From positions 20,030-84,029 of the IMG/VR virus record IMGVR_UViG_3300020442_001264: 64,000 nt of DNA; one strand, 5' to 3'. Of this stretch, positions 3,001-60,295 are shown piece by piece. This DNA is from a virus. The notes under the pieces were generated by a model. The model made no database searches. It saw only the letters and a list, made by a program, of their open reading frames with translations, and had not been told where the DNA came from. Both the position numbers and the translations under genes were made by a program. Within the stretch, counting starts at the first letter, position 1. Every line of letters begins with the position of its first letter.

Positions 3001-6000
3001 GCTTCAGACATGAAGGCTAGAATCCAACAAGCAATGGGTAACAAAGTGAATGTGAATGTGACTAATGATCCAGACACAGGTCAGAAATGTGTAAGAGTAG
3101 CATTTAAAGATAACTCTGTTGGAGTACCTATTTTGAGAAATGGTTGTAAAGGTGGAGTATTAAAAGAAGTATTAGACTTTACAGTAAACAACAAAGATAA
3201 CAGGTCATTCAGTGAGAACACATATACAGCAGGTACTAGAACCAGCACAACAACTGTTAATACACTGGTAAATGCTGATACCGATTCAAATGTTGACACA
3301 CCTGATGTAAATGTTGGTTCTGTTTCAACAACAGCAACTGGCACTGATTTTATCACAAACACAATAACAGCCGAAGGAAGAAGACGCAGTGATAATCCAT
3401 CAACAATTACTGTAGGACATAATGGTTCTAAATATAGAGTTGGTGATATATTGAGAGCAGTAGGTGGTACAGCAGTAGGCAATACAAGTAAGCCTGGAAT
3501 GCAGATTGCAGGATTAGTTTTAGAACGAGGTGGTTTTGGATACGGAGTATGGGATGAAAACAGTCAACGATATGTATTGCCGGAAGGCTCTGTGCAAATT
3601 AGAGTAGGCGGCCCAGGAGAATCTGGATATGGCTTTGAACCAGATATGTCAGATTTAAGAGTAAATCCAATCACAGGTGAACTAGATTGTGCTTGGCAAG
3701 TTGCTTTAGGAGATGCTAATAGCCCTGGTGGTAAAAGAGGGCTGTTAGCAATACAAGGTTTAACTGGTGAAAAATACATATTCAATGATCCTCCTTCAAT
3801 AACAATAACAGGACTAGGAACAGGTGCTAGATTCTCAGTAGCATGGTTAAATTCTAAACCATCAGATGTTGAAGAAGTTGCAATATTTAAAGTTACATCT
3901 GTTGGAGATGAAGGACAGATTGAAGATATGAAGATTCTCAACAGAGGATTGTATGAAACATTCCCAGGAGATTTAAATTCAGGTATTCCATTAGAATATC
4001 ATACCACTAGAAAAGATGGCGACGGTAATGATGTTATTATCGGCACAACAGCAACAGGTTTTCAAGGGCAAGGAACAGGTGCTCGTGTGTTTATGACAGC
4101 AAGATTAATTGGTGACTGTAGACAGAAAGGCACAGCATTACAAGACATGGGATTAAGCGAAGGTCCACTAACTAGAGATGACTTTGACAAATACATTGTT
4201 GATTACATCAATGATCATTCAGAAGTAGACCCAGATGGAAATCCATATTTTAGTGCCGCCCTTACAAATAACGGTGGGATACCAGGAATAAGAGTAACGT
4301 CAGACCAAGGTGACGGAGTAGAAATTGGCGAAGGTCGTCCAGGTGATTTATCAGGATTCAATATTGATCCTGGTGCTTACATACCTGAGATTCCGCCAAA
4401 CATAGATATCACAGAAGGTAGTGCCGCGGCAGGTGATGGTTCAGGTGGAACAGGAGGACCAGGCAGAGGAAAAAGTATTAGATATTCTAGTAGGCATCCA
4501 TTTGCAATTAGTACTGACATAGGTGAGTTATTATCACAATCAGGCTTGTACAAATATGAATTGAGAAGATTAGACGGTACTAGCCCTATCACAATAACAT
4601 CATCAGATGCAAAAGCAATTCATGTTGATCCATTAGCATTGGAAAGTGTTAGACATAGCACTGAAACAGGTTTAGATATGGCAAACATTGCCAACGTGTG
4701 GATTGACAATTATAATGATACAGGAAAATGGGCATACTTAGAAAGTAACACAATTATAAGACAGCAAGAAGATTTAGTAGATACTAGATTTATCAGAGAC
4801 GTATTTACATATGATGAAACTTCTGCAGAAAAAGAATTTGATATAGATTTATATGATCCGTTTAAAGGTATTATTCCAGGTTTCATAGACAAAGAAATAG
4901 ATTTGAAAACATTGAGAGATCCAATAGTTTACGATGGTAGAAAGACAAAATACGGCAGAGCACAAGTAGGTTTAAGATGGTGGGATACTACCAATGTGAG
5001 ATATGAATGGTATGAGCAAGGATCTGGAAATTACGGAGCACAAGGTTATAACAATTATGAACGTTCTGTAAATTGGGGTAATATGTTCCCAGGTAGTAGA
5101 GTTGAAATTTACGAATGGGTTGAGAGTTTAAGTCCTCCAAGTTCTTTCACACAAGGAAGACCACATCCGGATCAAAACTTTATAACAGAATCTCATCCTG
5201 ATAAAACTGGTAAGCCTTTAACATATTACTATTTCTGGGCAACAGAGTTAGATGTTGTTTCTGATTTAGCAAGAGTAAACTACAACAAAGAAAGAACTAC
5301 TAGGGATATAACTAGGTTATTAACTGACTTGGAAAGTGAGAGAGTACCTTACACAGGTATTGTGTCTCCTGATGGACTTGTTGTTAATACACTAGGTGAT
5401 TTGATTAGAACTGAAGACAGTATTTTAAGTGTAAACTTTAAACGTAAAGACACAGAAGCAGTACAAAAACACAGCAGTTGGAATCTAGTAGGCGAAAATG
5501 ATACTGATGGTGCTATACCTAGAAATTTAAGTATTAAAATGATAGACAGTTTAGCAGGGTATAATGCTATTAAACAAGTTGTACCTGGTTCTGGATTAAG
5601 CACATCAGAAAGATTTGGTTCTAAATTTAGACCTAGACAAACAATGTTTAAGGATCTTAAGAAAGCAAGAAAACAGATGTTTGTAGTTATGAATGATATC
5701 TTTAAAGATATTAAAATGAATACAACTTTTATAGATTGGAAAAAAGAATTACCTAAGGATTATTCATTACTACAAGATGTAAATTGGTATGAAAAGCAAA
5801 GAATTAATAAAGTAGATAATAGCACAGTTTATTATGATAGCACATATAAACCTTTAAGAAAAGTAACAGATACAAAACAATTTGGTTTATTAACAAATGT
5901 ATTAGATAAGAGTATTATTCAGGTACAGAAAGATGATACACAAGCATACAAGTTATATGAGTATGATAAGAAAACTAATACATTTAAACTTATTGCAATC

Positions 6001-8223
6001 GAAAAAGAAACTGTAGCATGGAATGATAGTGTTTGGAATGATGCACAAAATCTCACAAGAGGTACGGAAATCAGAGACATACTAGTTGCATTGTATGAAA
6101 AAATATTTATTAATACATACGAAATACATTGGAACAAATTCTTTTTTGAAATGTTGAAGTATGCATACGCAGAGCAAGGTGAATTGGATTGGGCATTCAA
6201 AACAACATACCTAAAAGTTGTTAAAGAAGAAACAGATTTAATACCATTTAAAGGATTTAAAGTTGACAACTTTGATAAAGCCGTTGAATATTTCAATGAA
6301 GTAAAACCTTATAGTAGTAAGATTAGAAATTACAGTGATATCAAAAAAGCACCTGTTGAAATTTTATCAGGAAAAACAACAGACTTTGATAGACCACCTT
6401 ATTATGACGAAGACAATTATACAGTAAGAATATTAGATGCAAGTGTAAACGCAGATAACACCATTCTAAATTCAGATACTGATTATGCAGGTTTTGTGAG
6501 TAACAGTGATAAAGTTAGAACATTTGACCAAAAAATTATATTTGATAGAGTCAAAGGATCATTGTATGAAAACAGTTCTGGTGGAACTACACAAACAATT
6601 ATTGCAGACGGTTCAACAACAATATTCAATTTGAACTTCACTGTTGAAGATGAAAGTAGACTGGAAGTTCATGTAAACGGTGAAAAGATTGAAAAAACAT
6701 CAGACGGTGGTAATGTTACTAACTTCACAGTTGATTTAGGTAACTCGTTTGTTAGTTTTTCAGACGAAGCAAACATAAACAACAGAGTTGGCACACCGGA
6801 AAACGGTGACAAAGTTGAATTTAAATACATAGATGGTTTTGATCCGACATTAGAAACAATGAATGTATCTATTGCTAAGAACTTAGTAGCAATAGAGTCA
6901 AACAGTAATATTAATATTTCTAACACATCACAAAAATGGACAGCACCTGAAAGGTTATGGAAGTTTGACCCTGATGTGAGAAATGCAATTACCACAGCAT
7001 TTGATACAGCATATGGTACTGGTGCAGGTTCTAATACAGAGATAACAAGCAATATAAGTATTATGACTTCCATGGTTGCAGATGGTAATTTAAAACTTGC
7101 ATTAGATTTAATCAAGTCAAAAGTACATGCTACTTTCCAAGGCGAAGAATTAGATGCAAATGTATTCACAGATGTTGTTCCTGGTACACACCCAACAACA
7201 TTCTATACAGATAGCAGAGGATTTGATACTTATGCTTGGGACGATGGCTTATTTGATAGAGAAATTGAAGTAGATAACTTTGTTGGTATATTCAGCGAAA
7301 GTGCTTCAGGTAATGTAAATTACAGAGTAAATGATGAAACTGTTTATGGATTTGATGCTACAACATTCCTAAAACACAGATATGGTCCTGATAGACCTGA
7401 AGAACTTGCAGTGGTACAACCACTTGAAACATTAACTATGGATGTTTACACTAAAGGTAATACACAAATAAGTACAGACAGTACTGATGCAAGATATCTG
7501 GTGTTTATGGATATTTTTGGAAATAGCGAATATTATAGAAGAACTGTAAATGCATTAACAACAGTATCATCGAATGTTAATATTTGGGATAATGAAATTA
7601 ATGTTGTAGATGCAAGTAGATTGCCTGATGCTACAAAGAAAGACACAGCAGTTGTTTGGATCAACGGCGAAAGAATAGAATACGAAAAACGTGATACAGT
7701 AAACAATAAATTAGTAGGTATCACAAGAGGAACAAAAGGAACATCACCTAATACAGTTTTAACAGCAGGGGAAGGCATATTCAACGGAGAAGAAACTGAG
7801 AATATAAGATTAAGAGATGCCAATGGTAACATATTAAGAGACCCTGAGGACTTTAACTGGATTAAACCAGTAGCAATATTTGATGATACAGTTCCTTTTG
7901 ATGATGATTGGGACGGCACAGGAAGTCTAACAGGATTCCAAAACAATGTTATGACCACAGCAGGCACAGTTGGTGATTTACCATATGATGTTGATGCAGG
8001 AAACGTTACATTTGGATTTGACTCCAGTTGGGACAATTCAGGGTCGTTTAAGCCAACATCAAACGGTGTAGAAAATTACACACTCCCATCATTTGATATA
8101 GATGAAGATACAGGTTGGGATTCGGGTGATCAAACCCTTAAAGAAGCAAGAAGTATTACAGATAAAGGTACTGTCTTTAAAGCAAATACAAGTATTATAG
8201 ACTTCTTGCACAATTTTGATTAA
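1..8223 (+). CDS. Giant virion structural protein (left end missing)
   Basis: The reading frame is open from the first base, so the true start lies left of the window; the TTG at 232 is only an internal codon. At least 2740 residues are present. The N-terminal part seen is Pro/Gln-rich. Two Calx-beta-like beta-sandwich repeats follow, at about residues 334-430 and 437-555 of the visible part, each ending in a pattern like TTEGTETLTFTL. The rest is Gly/Asn/Thr-rich and beta-strand-like, with a late segment (VWINGERIEYEK, then GITRGTKGT) of a kind common in marine T4-like phage structural proteins. It lies directly upstream of fibre-type genes and has no catalytic motif. Role inferred: baseplate, tail-fibre or adhesion component. 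The structural assignment is fairly sure; the exact part of the virion is not. Confidence 0.75.
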   Translation, partial: PGTVPLPKGTTVKNSDTGQSSTATAGPAPSDVVPAPKAPSDGPLTSPPIIECGPDPDQVPEPEGPTLTPQQIAAQALLDQHNFQTQFILPHQQEAVKPQAQTNLENQGTRYNQQGGYSLGGPRTGSDGGLVYGQQQGAEWGANERQFNYETGEWEYVPSGAKWTQDGVEYTMMADGTIQGDDGTIWATKKTRITIDGAKGSLGDRYGDYGIVGLTDQGKKDADPVLKARLAMINPRYQAKAGEDPSLRIDHADKECNTLIPHTHAYEPVGEPYCVDDANGRNKEGIQHQLYRCANANNNDEGCGMPEYIEETKGVATCIKPYGGYISAVWSVPKVAEGSSAVYTVTTDSNVRDGTQVLVTVSGSANAIADTDLTGSSFTLTINNSTASKTVNFTADATTEGTETLTFTLAEYDNDNNETGQMVATIDIDDTSQTPVPTYSSMTISNSTLRENGGLVDLVVRGSHLTDGATIVGTLSGTGLTRSDFTAGSDLNDNLEITFTMSDQGGNAFVSDVKQIAAIADVTTEGDEAFTITLANSDSNGASAGLPKSVTATIKDDSLSPAPPYECVDYYLWHNNGPTPETTSFYCTSDTQNHTMHVAFDMYSANDALRVYQSDTKYGKDRLIAGTHSNSTCRNMTSAEKNEFKNVISNNSDPGNNSSALQTLTDMSTNPDSNGGRAYAGICEFTYNQANGRYITVETVRGTNGGSSVFRWWAQVCIDEGENPWYFEKEGGHSSGTQSSSGPGNGASAGYVATGSVAGAMKSTRKSTKTASYSIPLGIPNFGNVPMTPSNPIGYHINFNGIGYNGVYGFQSVGNGPGLGTKPMDFAVPSALPRMRRLNGGDAFMRYGMNRASYQDDFTRFHDAEFTDARRPLDGRPSFQNQAGTVTPKTSSPIPDNSAFNPESAPEKVKPRAMEIKLLEKTKTGVYQPKKGSKGDISLRIELEEYCRQTKVHFCTDNTFMTDGADTAGPGETDHSRYAIRGGDTFWVGDTQIDTTGVLSASDMKARIQQAMGNKVNVNVTNDPDTGQKCVRVAFKDNSVGVPILRNGCKGGVLKEVLDFTVNNKDNRSFSENTYTAGTRTSTTTVNTLVNADTDSNVDTPDVNVGSVSTTATGTDFITNTITAEGRRRSDNPSTITVGHNGSKYRVGDILRAVGGTAVGNTSKPGMQIAGLVLERGGFGYGVWDENSQRYVLPEGSVQIRVGGPGESGYGFEPDMSDLRVNPITGELDCAWQVALGDANSPGGKRGLLAIQGLTGEKYIFNDPPSITITGLGTGARFSVAWLNSKPSDVEEVAIFKVTSVGDEGQIEDMKILNRGLYETFPGDLNSGIPLEYHTTRKDGDGNDVIIGTTATGFQGQGTGARVFMTARLIGDCRQKGTALQDMGLSEGPLTRDDFDKYIVDYINDHSEVDPDGNPYFSAALTNNGGIPGIRVTSDQGDGVEIGEGRPGDLSGFNIDPGAYIPEIPPNIDITEGSAAAGDGSGGTGGPGRGKSIRYSSRHPFAISTDIGELLSQSGLYKYELRRLDGTSPITITSSDAKAIHVDPLALESVRHSTETGLDMANIANVWIDNYNDTGKWAYLESNTIIRQQEDLVDTRFIRDVFTYDETSAEKEFDIDLYDPFKGIIPGFIDKEIDLKTLRDPIVYDGRKTKYGRAQVGLRWWDTTNVRYEWYEQGSGNYGAQGYNNYERSVNWGNMFPGSRVEIYEWVESLSPPSSFTQGRPHPDQNFITESHPDKTGKPLTYYYFWATELDVVSDLARVNYNKERTTRDITRLLTDLESERVPYTGIVSPDGLVVNTLGDLIRTEDSILSVNFKRKDTEAVQKHSSWNLVGENDTDGAIPRNLSIKMIDSLAGYNAIKQVVPGSGLSTSERFGSKFRPRQTMFKDLKKARKQMFVVMNDIFKDIKMNTTFIDWKKELPKDYSLLQDVNWYEKQRINKVDNSTVYYDSTYKPLRKVTDTKQFGLLTNVLDKSIIQVQKDDTQAYKLYEYDKKTNTFKLIAIEKETVAWNDSVWNDAQNLTRGTEIRDILVALYEKIFINTYEIHWNKFFFEMLKYAYAEQGELDWAFKTTYLKVVKEETDLIPFKGFKVDNFDKAVEYFNEVKPYSSKIRNYSDIKKAPVEILSGKTTDFDRPPYYDEDNYTVRILDASVNADNTILNSDTDYAGFVSNSDKVRTFDQKIIFDRVKGSLYENSSGGTTQTIIADGSTTIFNLNFTVEDESRLEVHVNGEKIEKTSDGGNVTNFTVDLGNSFVSFSDEANINNRVGTPENGDKVEFKYIDGFDPTLETMNVSIAKNLVAIESNSNINISNTSQKWTAPERLWKFDPDVRNAITTAFDTAYGTGAGSNTEITSNISIMTSMVADGNLKLALDLIKSKVHATFQGEELDANVFTDVVPGTHPTTFYTDSRGFDTYAWDDGLFDREIEVDNFVGIFSESASGNVNYRVNDETVYGFDATTFLKHRYGPDRPEELAVVQPLETLTMDVYTKGNTQISTDSTDARYLVFMDIFGNSEYYRRTVNALTTVSSNVNIWDNEINVVDASRLPDATKKDTAVVWINGERIEYEKRDTVNNKLVGITRGTKGTSPNTVLTAGEGIFNGEETENIRLRDANGNILRDPEDFNWIKPVAIFDDTVPFDDDWDGTGSLTGFQNNVMTTAGTVGDLPYDVDAGNVTFGFDSSWDNSGSFKPTSNGVENYTLPSFDIDEDTGWDSGDQTLKEARSITDKGTVFKANTSIIDFLHNFD

Positions 8224-8250: not shown

Positions 8251-8258
8251 GATAAATA
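8251..8258 (+). promoter_or_regulatory. T4-type late promoter core, leaderless position
   Basis: GATAAATA ends exactly 5 nt before the ATG at 8264, and no Shine-Dalgarno site lies between. In T4 the late box spans about -13 to -6, so transcription would begin at or next to the ATG. The same geometry recurs at five other genes in the window. Confidence 0.6.
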
Positions 8259-8263
8259 AGAAT

Positions 8264-8890
8264 ATGAACGTTAGCAATGACAAAGCAGAAAAGGAAATGA
8301 AGCAGGCTAGTAAACCAGTCGATGAAAATGCAGGCATCAAAATGTCAGGACATATCTTGATTAGAGATGCAGATACAAAAGAAGAATTTGTAAACAAAAG
8401 AAATGCAATTCATTATGGTAACATGGCAAATATGATAGCAAATGCATTGACCAACCAGTCAGGTGCATATATCCATTATATGGCTTTTGGTAACGGAGCA
8501 ACAAGTGTAGACTCAGCAGGCAAGGTGATTTATAAAGCACCACGTGTCAGTGAGTCTTTCGAAAATAGTGCAACTCTGTATAGTAGAACTTATGAGAAAG
8601 TTATAAGTAACAACACTACTACAGACAAGATTGAAATAATCACAGGAACTAGTTTTACAGATTTAAAAATGACTTGTACATTAGGTTATAATCAACCTGC
8701 AGGACAAGACGATTTTGATAGCAGTACAACTAATGAAGGCACATACGTTTTTGATGAACTTGGCTTGCTAAGTTATGCAACCGATCCTGCAGATAGTAAA
8801 TTGCTAACACATGTGATATTTCACCCAGTTCAAAAAAGTGCAAACAGAACAATTGAAATTATATATACTGTCAGGGTACAGTTAAATTAA
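8264..8890 (+). CDS. Putative virion structural protein
   Basis: A 208-residue protein following the giant structural gene. It has no enzymatic motif and is rich in Ser/Thr/Asn. Its C-terminal half has a beta-rich pattern (VFDELGLLSY, then TIEIIYTVRVQL) seen in small tail or baseplate-associated phage proteins. A GTG at 8249 would add five residues. I chose the ATG at 8264 because the late-promoter core TAAATA sits exactly 5 nt upstream of it, the spacing found at other starts here. No Shine-Dalgarno site is present. The gene ends 13 bp before the fibre gene. Function is inferred from position and composition only. Confidence 0.7.
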   Translation: MNVSNDKAEKEMKQASKPVDENAGIKMSGHILIRDADTKEEFVNKRNAIHYGNMANMIANALTNQSGAYIHYMAFGNGATSVDSAGKVIYKAPRVSESFENSATLYSRTYEKVISNNTTTDKIEIITGTSFTDLKMTCTLGYNQPAGQDDFDSSTTNEGTYVFDELGLLSYATDPADSKLLTHVIFHPVQKSANRTIEIIYTVRVQLN

Positions 8891-11965: not shown

Positions 11966-11996
11966 AAAGCCAGTTCATCGTAACTGGCTTTTTTTT
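11966..11996 (+). terminator. Rho-independent terminator
   Basis: A perfect 9-bp stem (AAGCCAGTT / AACTGGCTT) with a 6-nt loop is followed by an unbroken T run. It lies 17 bp after the stop codon of the last structural gene and separates that block from the biosynthetic island. Confidence 0.95.
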
Positions 11997-12000
11997 GACT

Positions 12001-12008
12001 GGTAAATA
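12001..12008 (+). promoter_or_regulatory. Late promoter core, leaderless position
   Basis: GGTAAATA ends 5 nt before the ATG at 12014, immediately after the terminator. No Shine-Dalgarno site is present. It is the probable entry promoter of the long rightward island. Confidence 0.6.
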
Positions 12009-12013
12009 CAGTT

Positions 12014-12376
12014 ATGTCGTCTAAACTAGAAAAAGCACTCGAATTCGCTAATTATCGTACAACTTTAAATGTACAGCACAATGCCTTAAAAGCAAAAGTG
12101 CAAACATTATTAAGTTATAGCATAAACGGTGGAACATTTGAAATATCGCAAGAACTGATTTCTTTTATCAAATTACTATTAGATAAAGAGTATACTGATG
12201 CAGTACTTTTAGATACTTATAATAATCCTATACAAATAGAAAATCTAGACGACTTCTTAGAGGAGATTTTATCAAGATACTTTGAAGCAGTAAATGAATA
12301 TCATGCTGAATATCAAAAAATAAGAAAAGCAAGAAAAGTACACAAATTGATAGATTTAAATTTAGATGACTCATAA
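12014..12376 (+). CDS. Conserved-type phage hypothetical protein
   Basis: A 120-residue, mostly alpha-helical protein with charged ends. I do not recognise a domain. It is the first gene after the terminator and has a leaderless-type late promoter 5 nt upstream. Its 3' end overlaps the start of the phosphomannomutase-like gene by 11 nt, so the two are probably translated together. The C-terminus is Lys/Arg-rich and then acidic. Confidence 0.65.
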   Translation: MSSKLEKALEFANYRTTLNVQHNALKAKVQTLLSYSINGGTFEISQELISFIKLLLDKEYTDAVLLDTYNNPIQIENLDDFLEEILSRYFEAVNEYHAEYQKIRKARKVHKLIDLNLDDS

Positions 12377-18861: not shown

Positions 18862-19019
18862 AAACAGGTTGGACAATATGGAAATATGCCATAGGTTCAT
18901 TCAGTGATGAGAAAACAAAAGACTATGACAATTACGTTGCAGTAATAAGAACATTTGTAGTTTTAGTAAACGTTGTTTGTGCATTTTTTATTATGGCAAA
19001 CATCATACATAATTGGTAA
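18858..19019 (+). CDS. Small single-helix membrane protein (53 aa)
   Basis: The gene starts with an ATGA overlap of the previous stop and ends with a TAATG overlap of the next start. The product begins MKTGWTIWKYAIGSFSDEKT and has one membrane helix at about residues 29-48. Small proteins with a similar opening occur in marine T4-like phages (from memory). The double overlap makes a real gene likely. Function unknown. Confidence 0.65.
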   Translation: MKTGWTIWKYAIGSFSDEKTKDYDNYVAVIRTFVVLVNVVCAFFIMANIIHNW

Positions 19020-20656
19020 TGAGTATATACGATCAAGCCGCTGATAAGGCTAAAGAACAATTAGATAATATAAGCCCAACAATGTGCTATGCAAAATGGA
19101 GCCAAGTGTCTATGCATTTGACTAATGGCATGACGCATAGTTGCTACCATCCGCCTACACACAAAATACCGTTAGAAGAATTAGATAAAAATATTACAGC
19201 ATTACACAATACAGAAGAAAAGAAAGAACAACGTAGGCAGATGCTTAAAGGGGAAAGGCCCGAAGGTTGTAGTTATTGTTGGAATATAGAAGATACAGGT
19301 TCGAGGAGCGATAGAGTTTATCGTAGTGGAGAATATTGGGCACAGGAAAGCAGAGAAGATATAATGGATGCTGGTGCTAGTGGTAATATTAATCCTCGGT
19401 ATGTGGAAGTTAATTTTAATCAAGCATGTAATTTTAAATGTAGTTATTGTAGTCCACATTTAAGCACAAGTTGGCAAGAAGAAATAGAAGAATTTGGAGA
19501 ATATCCAACGACTGCTCCACATAACAACATTACTAGTCTAACTAACAAAGGTCTTATGCCACTTAAAATAAGCCAAGAAGATAATCCATACGTTACAGCA
19601 TTTTGGAAATGGTGGCCCGAGATGTATAAAACATTACGAGTGTTTCGTATGACAGGCGGTGAACCTTTAATGGACAAGAACACATTTAAAGTATTAGATT
19701 ATGTATATGAGCAACCAAACAAAGACTTAGAATTAAGTATAACATCAAATATGTGTCCAGTCAATGATGCATTGTTTGAAAAGTTTTTATCAAGTGTTAA
19801 AAAACTAGATAATGTACAACATGGTGCGGAAGTATATGTTAAGGATCCTTTAGATGGAACAGACTGGCAAACATGGCAACATTTTATAATAGGCGAAGAA
19901 GCAAAACGATATCACGACAGCGACTTACCAGTAATAGAGCGACATGATATACCGCAAACATTCTTACAAGTCGGACAATGTGAGGAACAAGACAATAACA
20001 GTTATACATACATTTATGAATACAACGATAAAGCATATCATAACTTTAGTGTGTTTGTAAGTTTAGATGGTTGGGGAGAACAAGCAGAATATATGCGTAA
20101 TGGTATGGACTTTGACCAACTATGGAATAATGTACATAGGTTTTTAGATGAAACTAGATATACTAGTGTTAATTTTATTAATACATTTAATTGTTTAAGT
20201 GTAACAAGTTTTAAAGAATTTTTAGAAGGAATATTAGAATTAAGAGAAAAGTGGAGTAAAGAAAATCAATTTGCAATGGGCTGGGAAGTACCGGAACAAC
20301 GTATATGGTTTGATATACCTTTACTGAGAAATCCTGCTTGGCAAAACTTACAAGTATTGCCTAGTCAATATCAGTCTTACATGGAAGAAGCAATACAGTT
20401 TATGGAACAAAATATTGCAAATGAAGATTATGTTGATTACAAAGGATTTAAAGATTTTGAAATTGCAAAAGCAAAACGTAACTTAGAAATTATGAAAAAA
20501 GAGTTGCCTCAAGAAAAATTAATTAGAGACAGAGCAGACTTTAATAAATTTTTTACAGAGCATGACTTAAGGCGTAACACAAACTTTTTAGCAACATTTC
20601 CAGAAATGCATGATTTTTGGGCAATGTGCGAAGAGGCGGAGGCACTTAATGGATAG
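19019..20656 (+). CDS. Radical SAM protein 1 (HPP subtype)
   Basis: A 546-residue protein. The core radical SAM cluster motif is CNFKCSYC (Cys137, Cys141, Cys144), followed by TGGEP near residue 209. Upstream lie further cysteines (Cys23, Cys42 in CYHPP, and Cys84/Cys87 in CSYC), arranged like an auxiliary iron-sulfur site placed before the core domain instead of after it. It is most similar to the gene at 22941, sharing the Cys-x-His-Pro-Pro signature. Members of this superfamily generate a 5'-deoxyadenosyl radical; the substrate is unknown. The start at 19019 overlaps the preceding stop (TAATG) and is preferred over the upstream TTG. Confidence 0.85.
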   Translation: MSIYDQAADKAKEQLDNISPTMCYAKWSQVSMHLTNGMTHSCYHPPTHKIPLEELDKNITALHNTEEKKEQRRQMLKGERPEGCSYCWNIEDTGSRSDRVYRSGEYWAQESREDIMDAGASGNINPRYVEVNFNQACNFKCSYCSPHLSTSWQEEIEEFGEYPTTAPHNNITSLTNKGLMPLKISQEDNPYVTAFWKWWPEMYKTLRVFRMTGGEPLMDKNTFKVLDYVYEQPNKDLELSITSNMCPVNDALFEKFLSSVKKLDNVQHGAEVYVKDPLDGTDWQTWQHFIIGEEAKRYHDSDLPVIERHDIPQTFLQVGQCEEQDNNSYTYIYEYNDKAYHNFSVFVSLDGWGEQAEYMRNGMDFDQLWNNVHRFLDETRYTSVNFINTFNCLSVTSFKEFLEGILELREKWSKENQFAMGWEVPEQRIWFDIPLLRNPAWQNLQVLPSQYQSYMEEAIQFMEQNIANEDYVDYKGFKDFEIAKAKRNLEIMKKELPQEKLIRDRADFNKFFTEHDLRRNTNFLATFPEMHDFWAMCEEAEALNG

Positions 20657-20900
20657 TAGAAAAATAATAGACGCTCTTAAAAAGGGAGTAGTCACAATAG
20701 TATTTGAAAAAATAGACACAAAAGAGATTCGAACAATGCCATGCACATTAAACAATGAGATATCAGAACAAACAATGAAAGTTGGTAATTACACCAGTAC
20801 TGACACAATAGTTTGTTATGGGTTAGATGTTAAAGCATGGCGTGATGTTAGAATAAACACAATCATAGAATGGTACGAAGGATACCCAAAGGAGGCGTAA
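20649..20900 (+). CDS. SH3-like barrel protein (DUF2693-type)
   Basis: An 83-residue protein starting at the ATG that overlaps the radical SAM stop by 8 nt. The pattern RKIIDALKKGVVTIVFEK, then MPCTLN, then LDVKAWRDVRINTIIEW matches the small SH3-barrel/DUF2693 proteins common in T4-like phages. These have no established function. Its 3' end overlaps the next start by one base. Confidence 0.7.
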   Translation: MDSRKIIDALKKGVVTIVFEKIDTKEIRTMPCTLNNEISEQTMKVGNYTSTDTIVCYGLDVKAWRDVRINTIIEWYEGYPKEA

Positions 20901-21226
20901 TGCTAGACATAGACAGTATAAGAAACACACTTACAACAAACTTAAACGAAACAAAGTCTGAGGGAGTTGATATAGATATAAATGTAAATGTAATAAGTGA
21001 AGCAAATGGCAAATTTAATGTACAAGTTCACGATAGTGCAGTTACAGTTGATGATGGAAACTTGGATAAAGCAGACATCACAGTAGGCTTTGTAAACAAA
21101 GATGTAATGATAGATATGTTTACAAAGGGAGCAAATCCTATGTCATTAGTTATGAGCGGTAAGATGACTTTTAACGGTGATATGGCAAAAGGAAAAAGTA
21201 TTAAGGGGTTATTCGTAAAAGAATAA
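20900..21226 (+). CDS. SCP2 (sterol carrier)-like protein
   Basis: A 108-residue protein with a strong Shine-Dalgarno site (AGGAGG, 7 nt before the ATG at 20900). The sequence ADITVGFVNKDVMIDMFT, then GKMTFNGDMAKGKSIKGLF, follows the SCP2-domain pattern (D-x-T-hydrophobic ... G-x-hydrophobic-x-GD-x2-K). Such domains bind lipids or act as accessory lipid-transfer modules. The N-terminal part is predicted beta. With the desaturase further on, it hints at a lipid-linked step in the pathway (inference). Confidence 0.7.
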   Translation: MLDIDSIRNTLTTNLNETKSEGVDIDINVNVISEANGKFNVQVHDSAVTVDDGNLDKADITVGFVNKDVMIDMFTKGANPMSLVMSGKMTFNGDMAKGKSIKGLFVKE

Positions 21227-21233
21227 TAATAAA

Positions 21234-21998
21234 ATGAAAGTTTTAATTTATGGATTACCTGGGTCTGGCAAAAGTTACTTAGCAGAAAAACTTTGCGAGT
21301 ATTTAGGTGATAAAGTAAAATGGATAAATGCTGATAAGGTTAGAGAAGAAGCAAATGATTGGGACTTCTCCGAAGAAGGTAGATATCGACAAAAACACAG
21401 AATGAAAATGCTGTGTGAACAAGCAGAAGCAGAAGGCAAAATAGCATTAGCAGATTTTGTTTGTCCTTATGTAACTGCAAGAGAAGAATTCAATGCAGAC
21501 TATAATATATTTGTGGATGCTATTGACGAAGGAAGGTTTGAAGATACAAACAAAATCTTTGAACGTGACAAAAATTATGATTACAGAATAAAAAATCATA
21601 ATAATATGGATGCAATTAATCTTGCTTGGATATTAGGTAACTTGTATATATGGGATTGGAAAGCACCTACAACACAAATGTTGGGAAGGTTCCAACCATG
21701 GCATGACGGTCATCAAGCATTGTTTGATAGAGCATTAGCAAAACACGGACAAGTGTTTTTAATGATTAGAAACATGGATACAGATGATAACAATCCTTAT
21801 CCGGCACCAGATGTTGCATCACACTTGAAAAGAGAATTGGTACATTATGCAGGTAGATTACAAATACAAGTAGTACCAAATATCGTAAACATAACTTATG
21901 GAAGAGACGTTGGATACAAAATTGAACAAGAACATTTTGATAAAAGCATTGAAGACATAAGTGCAACAAAAATAAGAAATGAAGGAAAGCAAACTTAG
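21234..21998 (+). CDS. Kinase-nucleotidyltransferase fusion
   Basis: A 254-residue two-domain protein. The N-terminal domain has a P-loop GLPGSGKS (7-14) and the layout of an adenylylsulfate-kinase-like P-loop kinase. The C-terminal domain has GRFQPWHDGH (about 151-160, the HxGH-type motif of cytidylyl/adenylyltransferases) and ISATKIR near the end. Fusions of this kind are known in marine phages. The likely chemistry is phosphorylation of a small molecule followed by nucleotidyl transfer, making an activated intermediate. The substrates cannot be read from the sequence. The 3' end overlaps the DUF2061 gene by 20 nt. Confidence 0.8.
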   Translation: MKVLIYGLPGSGKSYLAEKLCEYLGDKVKWINADKVREEANDWDFSEEGRYRQKHRMKMLCEQAEAEGKIALADFVCPYVTAREEFNADYNIFVDAIDEGRFEDTNKIFERDKNYDYRIKNHNNMDAINLAWILGNLYIWDWKAPTTQMLGRFQPWHDGHQALFDRALAKHGQVFLMIRNMDTDDNNPYPAPDVASHLKRELVHYAGRLQIQVVPNIVNITYGRDVGYKIEQEHFDKSIEDISATKIRNEGKQT

Positions 21999-22167
21999 AA
22001 GTTTAGGAAAAGCAATTACATGGAGAATCACTGCAACACTCACGACAATTATAATAGCATGGCTACTTATAGGAGATGTAAATGTTGCCATGGCGATTGG
22101 CAGTATAGAGTTTTTTGCTAAATTTTTAATTTACTACATTCATGAAAGAGTATGGAACAAAATATGA
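21979..22167 (+). CDS. DUF2061 small membrane protein
   Basis: A 62-residue protein with the DUF2061 signature: SLGKAITWRITATLTTIIIAW at the start and IGSIEFFAKFLIYYIHERVW at the end. It has two hydrophobic segments. DUF2061 genes often sit beside adenylylsulfate-kinase genes in bacteria, and here it overlaps a gene with such a domain. It is probably an inner-membrane protein of unknown role. Confidence 0.8.
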   Translation: MKESKLRSLGKAITWRITATLTTIIIAWLLIGDVNVAMAIGSIEFFAKFLIYYIHERVWNKI

Positions 22168-22331
22168 TAGCAAAAGATCCAGGAAAAATGCATTACTATA
22201 TTAGTTTAGTAAAAAGCGGAGTTAGAATAGCAGGTTGTATAGGAGCAGTGGTATTACAGAGTATAACACTTTTGGCTGTTTCTTTTTTACTTGCAGAGAT
22301 ACTAGGAATACTAGAAGAAGTAATTGATTAA
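22164..22331 (+). CDS. Small membrane protein (55 aa)
   Basis: The start ATG overlaps the previous stop (ATGA). An in-frame ATG at 22152 would add four residues. A hydrophobic segment runs from about residue 21 to 47 and the C-terminus is acidic. No family recognised. It is supported by the overlap and by the clean membrane pattern. Confidence 0.55.
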   Translation: MIAKDPGKMHYYISLVKSGVRIAGCIGAVVLQSITLLAVSFLLAEILGILEEVID

Positions 22332-22332
22332 G

Positions 22333-22340
22333 AGTAAATA
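22333..22340 (+). promoter_or_regulatory. Late promoter core, leaderless position
   Basis: AGTAAATA ends 5 nt before the ATG at 22346, right after the previous stop codon. There is no Shine-Dalgarno site. Confidence 0.55.
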
Positions 22341-22345
22341 CAACA

Positions 22346-22948
22346 ATGCCACATTTAAAAAGAATAGCAATTACAGGACACACTAAAGGTATAGGAAAAC
22401 AACTTTGGAATCGTCTAGAAGACAGAGGGTTTGAGCTTAAAGGCTTTAGTAAAAGTACTGGATTTAATTTACAACGTGTGAGTACATGTAAAAAGGTTGT
22501 ACAAGAGGTTGTAGATTGGAATGCTGATGTGTTTATAAATAATGCATACGTTCCTGATAATCAAGTTAGGTTGTTATATCTATTATATGAGCATTGGGAA
22601 AACAAGCCTAGGTTAATTGTAAACCTAAGTGCAACAAGTAGTGATAGTATCACTAACTTTAGTCAAATGGGTTACAATGAAAACTGGACTCCATATGTAA
22701 GTGACAAAGCAAGGTTAGACTTTGCTAGTCTACAATTGGCTAATATGTATAAAAAAGGCAAATGTAGAGTTAGTCTAGTAAAGCCTGGTTTTGTAGATAC
22801 TGACAGTACTGCTATGTTTAAAAGTTTTGCTGAAGACTATATGATGACAGCAGATAGTGTAGCAGAACAACTAGAATGGTTAATAGATTTAGGCAAGGAA
22901 GTACAAGTTAGAAATTTAAGTTTTGACGTAGGAAATTTCAATGGTTAG
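22346..22948 (+). CDS. Short-chain dehydrogenase/reductase
   Basis: A 200-residue SDR-family enzyme, shorter than the usual 250. It has the cofactor motif TGHTKGIG (10-17), NNA (65-67), a Ser-rich NLSATSS segment (93-99) and the catalytic Tyr117-x3-Lys121 (YVSDK). It would oxidise or reduce a hydroxyl/keto group with NAD(P)H. In this island a nucleotide-sugar or glycan precursor is a plausible substrate. It has a leaderless-type late promoter and overlaps the following radical SAM gene by 8 nt. Confidence 0.85.
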   Translation: MPHLKRIAITGHTKGIGKQLWNRLEDRGFELKGFSKSTGFNLQRVSTCKKVVQEVVDWNADVFINNAYVPDNQVRLLYLLYEHWENKPRLIVNLSATSSDSITNFSQMGYNENWTPYVSDKARLDFASLQLANMYKKGKCRVSLVKPGFVDTDSTAMFKSFAEDYMMTADSVAEQLEWLIDLGKEVQVRNLSFDVGNFNG

Positions 22949-24611
22949 AAAAGTAGGAGAAACACATAGAGAATTTAAAGCACGGATGATAGATCCTGTG
23001 TCAGAATCTTTTTGTGGTGCTAAGTGGCTAAATGCTACTATATGGTTAGGACATGGCGGAACTACAAGTTGCCATCACCCTCCAGCACATCAAATAGATT
23101 TAGAAGAAATAAAAACTAATCCAAGTGCTATACATAACAGTAGGCACAAAAAGAAAATGCGTGACATGATGCAACAGGGCACAAGACCTAAAGAATGTGA
23201 ATACTGTTGGAAAATAGAAGACATGGGTAAAGACGCAGACGGTAATGAACCTGTAAGTGATAGAGTATATAAAACTGTTATCTATGAGGATAGCGATTTA
23301 GAAAGAATTGCCACCCTAGATCCCCAGGCTGATGTTAATTTAAAAACATTAGAGATAGCATTTGATAGAACATGTCAACTAGCATGTAGTTATTGTAATC
23401 CTGCTTTTAGTAGCACATGGGTTAAAGACATTCGAACTAACGGCGGCTATCAAGGAATAAAAAGTGATGCAAGAGGTCACTTTATAGATGATGCTCCGTA
23501 CGCCGAACCATTTCAACGAGGAGACTTTAATCCTTATGTAGATGCATTTTGGAGATGGTGGCCCGAACTATCTAAAGAACTAGAAGAGATTAGAGTTACA
23601 GGTGGCGAACCTTTAATGACACCAGACATATATAAATTGTTTGACTGGTTTAAAGAAACAGATGACCCAAACAAACACAAAATGCGATTAGCAATTAATA
23701 GTAACTTAATGGCTAAAGAAGAACTTCTTAATAAATTTATAGATGCTACACAGCACATAGACCACTTTCATGTTTATACAAGTTGTGAAGCCTTTGGCCC
23801 ACAAGCAGAATATATCAGAGATGGCTTAGAGTGGGAAGTGTGGACCGAACACTTTGAACGTTTTGCCACAGAAGCAAACTATGAAGGTGTTCATATGATG
23901 ATGACCATTAATGCTTTATGTTTAGATACTATTACAAAGTTTTGGGATTGGTGTTTAGATATGAAACGAAAATACGGGCACCATGTACCTGGTATAAGTG
24001 TAAACATATTGCGTTTTCCAAGTTTTCAAAGTCCGTTAACATTACCAGACAATTTGCGTAAAATGTATCATGACGAAATTAGTGAATGGCTAAACAACGT
24101 AAGAGAAAAAGCAGAAACAGATAGCAACGGTGTAGAACTTTTACAACCGTGGGAACAAGACCAAATAAGTCGACTAATAGAATATTTAGACGTTGTTAAG
24201 ACCCCGCATAGAAATACAGCAGACAGAGAGTTACTAGAACACGACTTTAAAATATTTTACGAACAATACGATGCTAGAAGAAATTTTAATTTTAAAGAAA
24301 CATTTCCTAGACTAGCAGAATTCTATGACAGTATAAAAGTTTTAGATATAACTGACGGTGACAATGACGTACAATCGCCTGATAGTATAGGAATAAAAAA
24401 TACATTGTATGCAAAACGTATTGTAACAGAAGACGGTGAAGTCAAGGTAGTAGAAATGAAAGTTCGTGGTAGACAAACAGGGGAAAGCCAAGATGACTAT
24501 GACGATGACAAATATGCTGAAGACGAAGCCAAAAACAAACGTGTAGGAAGTAGCATTGGCTGGGATACCGAAGTTGACGGTTTAGGTGGAACAGTAGATG
24601 AAGAGGATTAA
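22941..24611 (+). CDS. Radical SAM protein 2 (HPP subtype)
   Basis: A 556-residue protein. The core motif is CQLACSYC (Cys145, Cys149, Cys152), with TGGEP about 75 residues later. N-terminal auxiliary cysteines are Cys25, Cys44 (CHHPP) and Cys86/Cys89 (CEYC). It is the closest paralogue of the protein at 19019. The C-terminal 90 residues are an acidic, Asp/Glu/Lys-rich tail absent from the other paralogues. It overlaps both neighbours, so expression is coupled with the SDR and with radical SAM protein 3. Confidence 0.85.
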   Translation: MVRKVGETHREFKARMIDPVSESFCGAKWLNATIWLGHGGTTSCHHPPAHQIDLEEIKTNPSAIHNSRHKKKMRDMMQQGTRPKECEYCWKIEDMGKDADGNEPVSDRVYKTVIYEDSDLERIATLDPQADVNLKTLEIAFDRTCQLACSYCNPAFSSTWVKDIRTNGGYQGIKSDARGHFIDDAPYAEPFQRGDFNPYVDAFWRWWPELSKELEEIRVTGGEPLMTPDIYKLFDWFKETDDPNKHKMRLAINSNLMAKEELLNKFIDATQHIDHFHVYTSCEAFGPQAEYIRDGLEWEVWTEHFERFATEANYEGVHMMMTINALCLDTITKFWDWCLDMKRKYGHHVPGISVNILRFPSFQSPLTLPDNLRKMYHDEISEWLNNVREKAETDSNGVELLQPWEQDQISRLIEYLDVVKTPHRNTADRELLEHDFKIFYEQYDARRNFNFKETFPRLAEFYDSIKVLDITDGDNDVQSPDSIGIKNTLYAKRIVTEDGEVKVVEMKVRGRQTGESQDDYDDDKYAEDEAKNKRVGSSIGWDTEVDGLGGTVDEED

Positions 24612-26013
24612 ACCATTATGGGCACATGGAAACATGCTACCCGAATCACCCAATAAAGTATTCTGTACAGCACCGTGGACACATACTTACATTTCACCGC
24701 AAAGTGAAAGACGTATGTGTTGTGCTAGTAGAGAAGAACACAAATTCCAAAAGCAGTACATCGACGCCAGCAACGATGAGAAGTATGGTGAAGTAAAAGA
24801 GTCTGGAACTATAGAAGACTACAAACAAAATGTTGTAAGCCTTAAAGAGCATTGGAACTCGCCTTACATGATGGACATAAGAAAGAAACTTATGGCAGGC
24901 GAACGTATTCCACAATGTGATGTGTGTAATGACAGCATACTAAGTCAAAGCACATATCGTCAATGGTTCACAGGATTTTTGTTTGAAAAATATATCGACA
25001 AATGTTTTGAGGAGACAGACGAAAATGGATACACTACTATGGAACCTATCAGTTTTGACTATAGGGTTAGCAATCTGTGTAACTTTAAGTGCCGTATGTG
25101 TGGCGAACAACTTAGCTCAACGTGGGAAACAGAAAAGAGACAACATGGTCATTGGACGCCTGAGAACCAACCGTTTATGGTTCCGGAGAACAAAGAGATT
25201 ATCGAGAAGTTCCAAAAAGAAGTTGTAGAAGAAGAATTTTGGGACGCCATATGTAGAGGCATTGTAGAAGAAATATATTGGGTAGGCGGTGAGCCACTAA
25301 TGTATGATATACATTGGCGCTCTATGGATAGACTATCACAAGACGGCAATTTAGACAAAGTACATCTAAGGTATAACAGTAATCTAAGTAGAGTTAGATA
25401 TGGCAAATACTATTTGTACGATTGGTTACCACAAGCAAAAGACTGGACCATGTGTGCAAGTATAGACGGCATAGGACAAATAGGCGAGTTTATACGAACA
25501 GGTTTAGACTGGGAGCAATGGGATAAAAACTTTAGAGAAGGTGTACAGTTACCAGGCGGACATCAAAAGATGTTGATGGACTTAACATTAACAGGCCCGG
25601 GCCTATTTGGTCTTAGAGACTTTGTAAATTACGCATTAGAGAATGATGTAAAGATAGAAACAAAGACAATGTTTGCCTTCCATCCAGATATTGTGTTCAG
25701 TTTTATGAGTTGGCCTAGACATATATTAGATAGAATAGTAAACAGTTTATTAGATGACTTACGACCTATAGTGACAGAAAAACAACAAACAGTAATTACG
25801 CAACTAGAGTCTATCCTAAATACTCCTACATTTCAAGAACAATTTCCTGATACAGCAGAAGACCAGTTCTTTAATGGCAGACAATGGCAAAGAACAATAG
25901 CAGAAATTAGAAATGACGGACACGAAAGTTTAACAATTGAAGATATTTATTCAGCAGACCAAGAATTATTAGATTGGTATTCACGTGTTGATCCAAAACA
26001 CAATAGTAGGTAA
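24598..26013 (+). CDS. Radical SAM protein 3
   Basis: A 471-residue protein with core motif CNFKCRMC (Cys161, Cys165, Cys168) and VGGEP near residue 225. The N-terminal cysteine set is FCTAPW (Cys23), CC (41-42) and CDVC (107, 110). This C...CC...CxxC order recurs in the five later paralogues. It overlaps radical SAM gene 2 by 14 nt. Substrate unknown. Confidence 0.85.
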   Translation: MKRIKPLWAHGNMLPESPNKVFCTAPWTHTYISPQSERRMCCASREEHKFQKQYIDASNDEKYGEVKESGTIEDYKQNVVSLKEHWNSPYMMDIRKKLMAGERIPQCDVCNDSILSQSTYRQWFTGFLFEKYIDKCFEETDENGYTTMEPISFDYRVSNLCNFKCRMCGEQLSSTWETEKRQHGHWTPENQPFMVPENKEIIEKFQKEVVEEEFWDAICRGIVEEIYWVGGEPLMYDIHWRSMDRLSQDGNLDKVHLRYNSNLSRVRYGKYYLYDWLPQAKDWTMCASIDGIGQIGEFIRTGLDWEQWDKNFREGVQLPGGHQKMLMDLTLTGPGLFGLRDFVNYALENDVKIETKTMFAFHPDIVFSFMSWPRHILDRIVNSLLDDLRPIVTEKQQTVITQLESILNTPTFQEQFPDTAEDQFFNGRQWQRTIAEIRNDGHESLTIEDIYSADQELLDWYSRVDPKHNSR

Positions 26014-53171: not shown

Positions 53172-54129
53172 TGAGTTCTACTCCCACAACATAAGGTGTG
53201 TTCATCAATGTTTCTGTTAATTGTTTATAACTAATTGTGCATCTACCCACAGGTGCTCTGCCCAAGTTGTATTTGGGTAAATGATAATCATAGCCATACA
53301 GTTCTGCATTGTTCAGTTTACACCAATCCCAATACTGCTGTCGTTGTGCATCAGGATCTATAACACCAAAATTCAGTTTGTCCACAGCAAAACACACACT
53401 ACCACTGATAACACTTTGTTGTTTTACTTCATTATTTTTAATTAATTCAACATCATCAGTGGCAAAAGCATGTCCTAAGTCTTTGCCCACTGTGAAAAAG
53501 TCTGAATATAAATCACCATTTTGTATGTTATTTTCAAAACATCTGTACATGTCATCAGTAATTTCGGGGTATTTTGCTCTCACATGGTCTGATGTGTGTC
53601 TAATCACATAAAAACTTTCGCCGAAATTACTGTTTGGTGCTTTTTCCAAACTGTGAACCAGTTTGTTCAATCGTTCCAAACTTGCCAAAAACTCTGGCGT
53701 AGCAGTTTTTTGCACTTCAGCATCTTCTAATGCAGTTTCAAAAGCATAATGAATACTGTTCAGTCTATTGATCCTAACTCGCTCATCAAGGTCAACATTG
53801 ATGTAACTATCACTGTCAAAGTCAATAAATCCCATTGATTTGCAATAATCAATCTCTCTGTTGATACTGTGAGCATCGCGAGTCCAACTGTCCCAACTAA
53901 TATGTTTGCCATATCTATTCCAATCTATAAAGTTTCGGGGTGAATGTTCACTTTCAGCAGTATTATTCAATATCAAGTTGGTGCTGTATAAAAATGCATC
54001 AACAACAGGACTGTCTAACAGTTCCCAACTAATACTTTGTTCACCACAAGGATATTCTGTGAGCCTGTGAGTACCGCTGTCGTCTATTTCTCCGTGTGGC
54101 TTGCTGTGAAAGTGTATGGTGTAATGCAT
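53164..54129 (-). CDS. Hypothetical protein
   Basis: A 321-residue, largely helical protein without a recognised domain. It has no Shine-Dalgarno site. A TAAATA core lies 6 nt before the ATG, one base more than at the six leaderless genes, so it may be a further case. Confidence 0.6.
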   Translation of the reverse strand: MHYTIHFHSKPHGEIDDSGTHRLTEYPCGEQSISWELLDSPVVDAFLYSTNLILNNTAESEHSPRNFIDWNRYGKHISWDSWTRDAHSINREIDYCKSMGFIDFDSDSYINVDLDERVRINRLNSIHYAFETALEDAEVQKTATPEFLASLERLNKLVHSLEKAPNSNFGESFYVIRHTSDHVRAKYPEITDDMYRCFENNIQNGDLYSDFFTVGKDLGHAFATDDVELIKNNEVKQQSVISGSVCFAVDKLNFGVIDPDAQRQQYWDWCKLNNAELYGYDYHLPKYNLGRAPVGRCTISYKQLTETLMNTPYVVGVELND

Positions 54130-54138
54130 GAATAATAT

Positions 54139-54342
54139 TTATTGCCTATTATCCATTGCATCCATTTTTTCCAGTTCTAATTCAACTGTTCCTGGTTTTT
54201 CTGGGTTTTCTTTTCCCATTCTGTACAATGTGTCAAACATCAGTGCCGCACCCAGCCTTACGCCTTCTTTGTGTCCAATAAAGTAACTGGTGGCACCACA
54301 GCCAATAACACATAATCCAAAAATAATCAACTCAGTCGTCAT
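54139..54342 (-). CDS. Small single-helix membrane protein
   Basis: A 67-residue protein with an N-terminal membrane helix (about 4-24) and a charged C-terminal tail. It overlaps the zinc-ribbon gene upstream by 11 nt. No family recognised. Confidence 0.6.
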   Translation of the reverse strand: MTTELIIFGLCVIGCGATSYFIGHKEGVRLGAALMFDTLYRMGKENPEKPGTVELELEKMDAMDNRQ

Positions 54343-58674: not shown

Positions 58675-58682
58675 GTTAAATA
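58675..58682 (+). promoter_or_regulatory. Late promoter core, leaderless position
   Basis: GTTAAATA ends 5 nt before the ATG at 58688, with no Shine-Dalgarno site. TAAATATGTGC also occurs at the 17825 promoter. Confidence 0.6.
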
Positions 58683-58687
58683 TGTGC

Positions 58688-59314
58688 ATGATAGGGGTTA
58701 TTTCAGGGTATAGAACGGGTTCTACGACGCTCATAGAGGGCCTTAGCACACTTTTTGGGCTAGATTACAATCCAACGCACACTGGCGAGTTAGATTTTGC
58801 ACACGGGCATTATTATTCGCCCCACAGAGATGACATGATATATAAATTCATGCCCCAATCAGCAAGGCACAGAGAATCTGAACTTTGGGAAAGTATACAC
58901 GAAGATTGGTTATCAAAAAGTCAATTAATCTTCTCACTTAGACATGATGTAACTGCTCAAATTAAAAGTTATTATTTGGCAACCATAACAGGTGTTTGGC
59001 ATGGTGAAATGAATCCTATACAATCATACAATAATGTGCATTCAACAGACTTTAAAAATGTAGCAGACGTTCAAACTGATATTTGTATGAAAATGAATAG
59101 AGACACTTTAGAAGAATTTAAAGAGTCTTTTGTACAAAATTTACAAATGCAAAATGAAATATATGAGCAGTATGGTGGTGTAATTTCTGTTTTAGAACGA
59201 AGAAGTAGATTAGATTATAAGCCTTACAATTCGCCTTTTGTTTTGCCTGAACAGTTGAGAACTTGGGAAAGCGGCATTATCTTAAAAAATCACTTCCCTC
59301 ACTATAAATATTAA
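58688..59314 (+). CDS. Sulfotransferase-like protein
   Basis: A 208-residue protein. The N-terminal ISGYRTGSTTL is a phosphosulfate-loop-like motif, and TGVWHG in the middle matches TDVWHG of the gene at 38667. An in-frame ATG at 58682 overlaps the late-promoter box; the ATG at 58688 has the standard 5-nt spacing and is preferred. It is a rightward late gene set within leftward early genes, suggesting separate acquisition or a late function. Confidence 0.5.
   Translation: MIGVISGYRTGSTTLIEGLSTLFGLDYNPTHTGELDFAHGHYYSPHRDDMIYKFMPQSARHRESELWESIHEDWLSKSQLIFSLRHDVTAQIKSYYLATITGVWHGEMNPIQSYNNVHSTDFKNVADVQTDICMKMNRDTLEEFKESFVQNLQMQNEIYEQYGGVISVLERRSRLDYKPYNSPFVLPEQLRTWESGIILKNHFPHYKY
59303..59310 (+). 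promoter_or_regulatory. Perfect T4 late promoter box, leaderless position
   Basis: TATAAATA, the exact T4 late consensus, ends 5 nt before the ATG at 59316 and overlaps the 3' end of the previous gene. It is the best example of the leaderless arrangement. Confidence 0.65.
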
Positions 59315-59315
59315 T

Positions 59316-59405
59316 ATGGAGATATTTCTTTTAATTTGTTTAATGAGTTTGCCAATTGTAGCAGGAGCATATACTTTTTGGTTGTCTTACAAAATTAGCG
59401 GATAA
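59316..59405 (+). CDS. Tiny membrane peptide (29 aa)
   Basis: A 29-residue product (MEIFLLICLMSLPIVAGAYT at its start) that is almost entirely one membrane helix. It would be ignored on length alone, but it begins exactly 5 nt after a perfect TATAAATA. Its last 11 nt overlap the end of the converging SGNH-like gene. A holin-like or membrane-modifying role is possible, but unproven. Confidence 0.55.
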   Translation: MEIFLLICLMSLPIVAGAYTFWLSYKISG

Positions 59406-60282
59406 TTTTAGCAAACATATTTGCTAATTGTTCATGTCCATACTTTCCAAAATGAACATTATCTCTAGCAAAATCCCATTCTGTGTGTCTCAGATAATCT
59501 ATGGAGTTTGGTAGCCTTGGTACGTTTTTGTTGCATTTATTTTTAACATACTCTAACATCTCAGACTGAACAAAACCTTCTATTAATTTTACTTCATGAT
59601 GAACACACAGTTGTATTACAAGTTCTCTCCAAGTCCAAAATTCTAATAGTGATTGCTGTTTGCTTTGCAACAGATGTGCTTTAAAAAGTACGTCTGCTTG
59701 TTTATCTATACTAGTATTTCCAGGAGCAAACTGATATACAAAAGGTTCTACTTGTTCTTCAGTAATAAAGTCCAGTACTTGGTCATCTATTTGTTTTTCC
59801 TTATTTCCAACTAACATTTTTCTTTCTTTGCTGGGCCACAACACCAAAAGTGTATCTGGAATAAGTTCTTCTTCAAAACATTGTTTTATCAGCATGGCAG
59901 TTGTGTCAATACCTATACTACCTACTCCTAGATTAATATGATATGTGTTAAACATATCAGCAAGTCTCGAACCCCAAACTTCTGAATCTCTTACACCAAT
60001 TCCATATGTATGACTACACCCTGCTGTCATTATTGTGTTAGGTTTAATTACAAATTCATTGCCTCTAAAGTTATGTTTGTTGACGGTATACATATACTCG
60101 TCTTCTGTATAATCTTGCAAATTACCGCCATCTTTCCAAAAGTTTGGAGTATCTGATGGCTGATATTGGAATGTATTTTGCTTTATTTTACCATTTGTTT
60201 CTGGATTTGGTTGCAAACAAAATGGAAAACCTTTTTTTGCTTCAGTAAAAGGTCTGAGAGTATTATAATTAAGTTGTCCCAT
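59395..60282 (-). CDS. SGNH-like hydrolase
   Basis: A 295-residue protein. The SGNH blocks are TAGCSHTYGIGV (nucleophile Ser), GVGSIGIDT (Gly/Asn region) and ARDNVHFGKYGHEQLA (Asp-x2-His near the C-terminus). An N-terminal extension of about 90 residues precedes them. It is a possible esterase or O-acyltransferase acting on glycans. A leaderless-type late promoter lies 5 nt before the ATG. Confidence 0.6.
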   Translation of the reverse strand: MGQLNYNTLRPFTEAKKGFPFCLQPNPETNGKIKQNTFQYQPSDTPNFWKDGGNLQDYTEDEYMYTVNKHNFRGNEFVIKPNTIMTAGCSHTYGIGVRDSEVWGSRLADMFNTYHINLGVGSIGIDTTAMLIKQCFEEELIPDTLLVLWPSKERKMLVGNKEKQIDDQVLDFITEEQVEPFVYQFAPGNTSIDKQADVLFKAHLLQSKQQSLLEFWTWRELVIQLCVHHEVKLIEGFVQSEMLEYVKNKCNKNVPRLPNSIDYLRHTEWDFARDNVHFGKYGHEQLANMFAKIIR

Positions 60283-60287
60283 GTTAA

Positions 60288-60295
60288 TATTTAAC
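60288..60295 (-). promoter_or_regulatory. Late promoter core, leaderless position
   Basis: Minus strand GTTAAATA ends 5 nt before the ATG at 60282, with no Shine-Dalgarno site. This is the only minus-strand example with the exact 5-nt spacing. Confidence 0.55.

Follow-up and report, generated by a model that had tools for sequence, protein, structure and literature searches.

We analysed gene starts in a 64,000-nucleotide stretch of viral DNA (the window; it spans bases 20030-84029 of a viral contig 84,029 bases long, IMG/VR record IMGVR_UViG_3300020442_001264), in which the hexamer TAAATA stands exactly five nucleotides before the ATG of six genes. The "spacer" is the number of nucleotides between TAAATA and the ATG of an open reading frame (ORF). 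The results indicated that gp55-type late promoters probably yield leaderless late mRNAs alongside a leadered class, a reading to which we give a probability of roughly 0.87. The phages that have this class are large, mostly marine and related to T4, with many late genes affected. The sequence features that point to it are the box, its spacing, the loss of the Shine-Dalgarno (SD) sequence, the restriction to AUG, conservation, a signal at +1 and a gp55 gene in relatives.

In the mechanism that we favour, a (G)ATAAATA box would act as a T4-type late promoter, read by a phage gp55-family sigma factor on the host RNA polymerase, and transcription would begin at the sixth nucleotide after the box. 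One late-gene class would have its box positioned to put +1 on the start codon's A, either with spacer 5 or with spacer 6, where +1 would remain on this A. The resulting mRNA would start with 5'-AUG, carry neither a leader nor an SD sequence, and be translated by the leaderless route, in which the ribosome recognises the 5'-terminal AUG. A second class in the same genomes would use the same box with a leader of 10-28 nt, often including an SD sequence.

Spacer-5 starts in the contig and its relatives

The 84,029-base contig represents part of the genome of a T4-related jumbo phage. A nucleotide search revealed no DNA-level similarity to any named phage. Using T4 proteins, we found homologs of gp23, gp20, gp17, gp18, gp43, gp41, gp44 and UvsX in a near relative, G001 (a 339,794-base contig), and the nearest cultured terminase to that of G001 was from Pseudomonas phage 30-2 (55.6% identity).

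The original prediction had named the frequency of TAAATA-N5-ATG in related genomes, relative to chance, as one of its tests, and this frequency was far above chance. We counted TAAATA before the ATG of ORFs of at least 40 codons. The whole contig had six spacer-5 starts compared with about 0.4 at other spacers (Poisson P ~4e-6); five lay inside the window and one outside, at contig position 4579, where the gene that starts shares its family with the gp25-like gene of G001. In seven contigs, the TAAATA-Nk-ATG profile showed a single-nucleotide peak at k = 5, with k = 0-4 nearly empty; the peak counts included 20 in G001, 10 in G009, 7 in G005 and 14 in G017, and G016 and G019 behaved likewise. 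Two cultured phages had the class as well: the SAR11 phage HTVC008M had 12 at k = 5, and the Xanthomonas phage XacN1 had 9 at k = 5 and 8 at k = 6. Pooled over 11 phages (nine contigs of the group, HTVC008M and XacN1), 111 ATG starts were found at spacer 5, against about 5 at neighbouring spacers and 0-7 at spacers 0-4. The pooled spacer-5 set comprised 114 proteins in 73 families, and the gp25 family had a spacer-5 start in seven phages.

An unbiased hexamer-by-position scan gave TAAATA at 5 as the first or second start-linked signal in G000, G001, G019 and HTVC008M. It ranked first in G019 (P 7e-14) and second in HTVC008M (P 6e-11) and G001 (P 3e-14), where it equalled the SD hexamer AGGAGA in strength. 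XacN1 was a softer case, with a spacer 5-6 peak in the profile, a weak signal in the unbiased scan and some sites repeated in the terminal repeats. By distance profile, no spacer-5 class was found in T4, Syn9 or CBB, and PA5oct, which is of the nearest cultured type by terminase, had no clear one.

Signals of the predicted transcription start and of probable leaderless mRNA

The T4 late promoter box lies at -13 to -6 (PMC1524935), and +1 is therefore expected at the sixth base after TAAATA. At leadered sites, this base was A in 57% and a purine in 71% (A elsewhere, 38%; P 1e-9), and T4, as a control, showed the same purine peak (73%). A purine was also present there at 22 of the 23 pooled spacer-8 sites, which would have a 3-nt leader. 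The sequence signal is that of a T4-type late promoter, with a start at the sixth nucleotide after the box and a purine at +1. In the spacer-5 class, the sixth base is the A of the ATG itself, and a pyrimidine occupied -1 at 96/106 sites compared with 41% at other ATGs, as would be expected of an initiator. The box consensus was (G)ATAAATA, with A in 75% and G in 58% at the two positions preceding TAAATA, and agreed with the T4-type late promoter box (TATAAATA or NATAAATA); the -13 T of T4 is dispensable in cyanophages too (PMC2984593). Spacer 8 also formed a minor class of its own, with leaders of exactly 3 nt at its 23 sites, and spacer 9 was nearly empty (2 sites).

The claim that transcription starts on the A of the ATG was further supported by features of the starts themselves. 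An SD sequence was found at 2/62 spacer-5 starts, 35/51 starts at spacer 21-25, 345/802 long ORFs and 169/3000 random ATGs, which places the spacer-5 class at about the random-ATG level. Beside the 111 ATG starts, spacer 5 held only 4 GTG and 1 TTG, both at background; the leaderless transcription start sites (TSSs) of S. meliloti are likewise all AUG (PMC3616915). Terminators abutted the box, ending 10-40 nt before the ATG at 8/112 spacer-5/6 sites compared with 7/1086 ORFs. In G017 and HTVC008M, divergent starts lay about 23-28 bp apart with their boxes back-to-back.

We regard two other readings as quite unlikely. In the first, the late promoter is real, the working start is a downstream in-frame AUG, and the mRNA has a normal leader in which the ATG at +1 is incidental. 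Some ORFs do hold further in-frame ATGs, and the annotated start of XacN1 163334 is 24 codons downstream. However, the peak is specific to ATG and to one spacer, the families of the window genes starting at 12014 and 22346 are homologous from residue 1, and deposited start codons agree: 9/9 HTVC008M sites within the annotated first 50 kb match exactly, as do 3/4 of the XacN1 sites checked. In the second, equally improbable reading, TAAATA-N5 is part of a longer mRNA and acts in translation, as an A/U-rich S1-binding or enhancer site, and not as a promoter. The box does occupy the usual place of an SD sequence, and A/U-rich leaders can substitute for one; against this, other permutations of the TAAATA letters gave no comparable peak in G001 or G009, GTG and TTG starts did not rise above background, terminators and divergent promoters leave no space for a leader, and the same box also occurs 15-33 nt away from starts, with an SD sequence and a +1-like A.

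Sigma factor and downstream genes

The gp55-family sigma factor (phrog_234) was detected in 8/8 relatives tested (E 1e-21 to 1e-26) and in 8/8 cultured phages tested. Late virion genes stood downstream of the boxes, as with T4-type promoters: terminase, tail tube, gp13, gp25, head closure and tape measure. In G001, the spacer-5 genes included those for terminase, tail tube, the gp13 adaptor, gp25, the phrog_11259 protein and virion proteins, together with many of unknown or non-virion type. Among the spacer-5 starts of HTVC008M were those of baseplate genes and of two divergent genes, for the DNA end protector and head closure.

Several points weigh against leaderless transcription from gp55-type promoters. 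The 84 kb contig itself has no gp55 gene, whose presence is deduced from the relatives. In the relatives, gp33 (phrog_254) was not detected apart from one weak match in G005, and a search for gp45 (phrog_223), run without a positive control, gave no match. Many spacer-5 genes are non-virion (radical SAM, short-chain dehydrogenase (SDR) and others), and "late" may not apply to each. The pooled relatives are partly non-independent, though they represent 73 protein families, and an exactly conserved box is missing in the homologs of two window genes and at the 59316 gene. Promoter activity, exact 5' ends, leaderless translation and late timing are predictions that we infer from sequence.

Phage-encoded bS21 genes were found at G001:145827, G016:275501, G017:178386, G018:11263, G019:182211 and HTVC008M:91237, and in G016-G019 the bS21 gene adjoins a phage IF3 gene. 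As a cause of the leaderless class, bS21 was rejected because the association was unconvincing: besides G001, G016-G019 and HTVC008M, PA5oct and Atu_ph07 carry it, and XacN1 lacks it. IF3, present in G016-G019, was rejected too, as CBB and Atu_ph07 also carry it. Host class alone (alphaproteobacteria-type hosts) did not explain the distribution either, since Atu_ph07 (Agrobacterium) had no clear class (3 vs 0-4 at neighbouring spacers). A doubtful extension is a late programme with two channels, in which one gp55-type promoter would feed both leadered and leaderless mRNAs; the phage would shift the host ribosome to the leaderless channel late, perhaps via its own bS21 (and IF3 in some), and promoter position would set the timing or yield of translation.

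Comparison with known systems

T4-type late promoters and leaderless mRNAs are each already known. Jumbo phages and cyanophages have been reported to use the former (PMC5259590, PMC2984593). Transcripts of phages frequently lack leaders, according to a remark in a paper on AR9 (PMC5312081), so that leaderless mRNA in phages is not in itself a novelty. According to the original prediction, the feature is not known to have been described in T4-like phages. We found no earlier description of a leaderless class under gp55-type promoters in the literature searched, subscription papers being outside its reach. The class is not general to T4-like phages, being absent in T4, Syn9 and CBB.

The late promoters of T4 (gp55/gp33/gp45) share with those described here the TATAAATA-type box, the box-to-start spacing, the purine at +1, a gp55-family sigma gene and virion genes downstream. 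They differ in that the T4 box lies mostly 13-32 nt before the ATG, with an SD sequence (TATAAATA mode, 23-28); the four spacer-5 matches in T4 all lack the complete octamer, and no annotated gene starts at any of them. T4 also differs in its gp33 and gp45, neither of which was clearly detected in the present phages. CBB (PMC5259590) is likewise a jumbo myovirus with a gp55-like sigma factor, ATAAATA before structural genes and no detected gp33 or gp45, but has 0 spacer-5 or spacer-6 sites. In the jumbo phage phiKZ (PMC7598289), the late promoter motif TATG also has ATG at the start site; there, a phage-coded multisubunit RNA polymerase starts on the G of TATG, whereas here transcription would start on the A and involve a -10-like box and a gp55-type sigma factor. 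The leaderless mRNAs of S. meliloti, an alphaproteobacterium (PMC3616915), share a TSS on the A of AUG and the use of AUG only, and differ in that both the genes and the sigma factors are the host's own (171 leaderless TSSs genome-wide).

If correct, this reading predicts nucleotide-exact 5' ends for about 100 phage mRNAs, including those of terminase, baseplate and cultured SAR11 phage genes, and would change start-codon annotation in these phages. It also describes a clade-specific split, with the class in marine jumbo phages, HTVC008M and XacN1 and without it in T4, Syn9 and CBB, which raises the question of whether a phage's ability to use leaderless mRNAs depends on the ribosomes of its host.

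Individual sites in the window

All six gene starts of the original prediction were confirmed as it had described them, and, as it had also claimed, none has an SD sequence. On both strands, the window holds 7 exact TAAATA-N5-ATG matches compared with 2.9 expected from dinucleotide shuffles, and at least 7 occurred in 2/100 shuffles. The seventh match (6822-6835) falls within a giant ORF and marks no gene start. This whole-window count understates the effect, because 6/7 matches sit on ORF starts; the shuffle test was too blunt, and distance profiles were used instead. That an A/T-rich hexamer simply recurs by chance in phage DNA that is itself A/T-rich has a negligible probability and is already refuted for the class as a whole, though not for 59316, which may be a chance match: the whole-window excess is modest, but separate contigs had spacer-5 counts of 6, 20, 10, 7, 14, 11 and 19 compared with about 0.1-1.1, and 3/6 window genes show conservation.

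On the plus strand, the first site (8253..8266; box 8253-8258, ATG 8264) precedes a baseplate-type structural gene (phrog_11259). Spacer 5 was found in 12/80 homologs, ten of them in a close clade (L011-L023), with variable flanking bases; other near relatives have spacer 6-8, and distant ones about 17-23 with an SD-like AGGA. The second (12003..12016, plus strand; box 12003-12008, ATG 12014) precedes the gene of a conserved 120-aa protein. Its close relatives keep spacer 5 (one has 6) with a variable spacer sequence, and their homology begins at residue 1. Directly before this box lies an intrinsic terminator on the plus strand (11969..11996), the hairpin GCCAGTT-CATCGT-AACTGGC followed by T8; its T-run is 17 nt from the ATG, and hairpin and T-run are conserved in close relatives. 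The third (22335..22348, plus strand; ATG 22346) precedes a short-chain-dehydrogenase-like gene, with spacer 5 in 3/4 homologs of at least 67% identity (L171, L173/G001 and G009; not G008). For these three genes, close relatives retained the spacer of 5 while the intervening bases had changed, and conservation gives the sites good support.

The fourth site (58677..58690, plus strand; ATG 58688) precedes a weakly sulfotransferase-like gene, divergent from minus-strand genes. Its homolog in G001 (34% identity) has GATAAGTA-N5-ATG, a box with one mismatch at the same spacer; in the window ORF, another in-frame ATG (58682) overlaps the box. On the minus strand, the site at 60280..60293 (box 60293-60288, ATG 60282) precedes the gene of a 295-aa protein, SGNH-hydrolase-like by eye only. 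An IMG/VR homolog search for this gene found none, and its homologs were only about 30% identical and lacked the box. A spacer-6 case, also on the minus strand (54127..54141; box 54141-54136, ATG 54129), had been listed as a possible seventh; the same spacer of 6 occurs in its homolog in G001 (39.5% identity over 1-321), and the case is probably genuine.

The remaining site (59303..59318, plus strand; ATG 59316) had been singled out for its full T4 consensus box. TATAAATA is indeed present at 59303-59310, but the window shows no enrichment of this octamer (3 vs 9.8 expected). We rejected it as the best example: the ORF has 29 codons, a homolog search detected none, and the box falls within the last codons of the upstream gene. 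It is the weakest of the six.

Other features were also observed. A giant ORF of 6289 aa (-10646 to 8223 in window coordinates) ends at window position 8223. Upstream of the 12014 homolog in L102, L105, L110 and L111, the 3' arm of a hairpin contains GGAGG or a similar sequence and is followed by T6-T7 directly before the ATG, which places an SD sequence within a terminator-like stem. At window 19013-26013, radical-SAM genes adjoin a kinase/cytidyltransferase gene and an SDR gene, a cluster possibly for surface sugar synthesis. Finally, the palindrome TTAAAACATGTTTTAA or a near variant precedes a spacer-5 late box, in most of these genomes that of the gp25-like gene, by 10 nt (by 9 in G003), at one place per genome (G000:C1:4542-4557, outside the window; G001:297409; G009:70140-; G008:13898-; a variant in G003), and is a possible operator.
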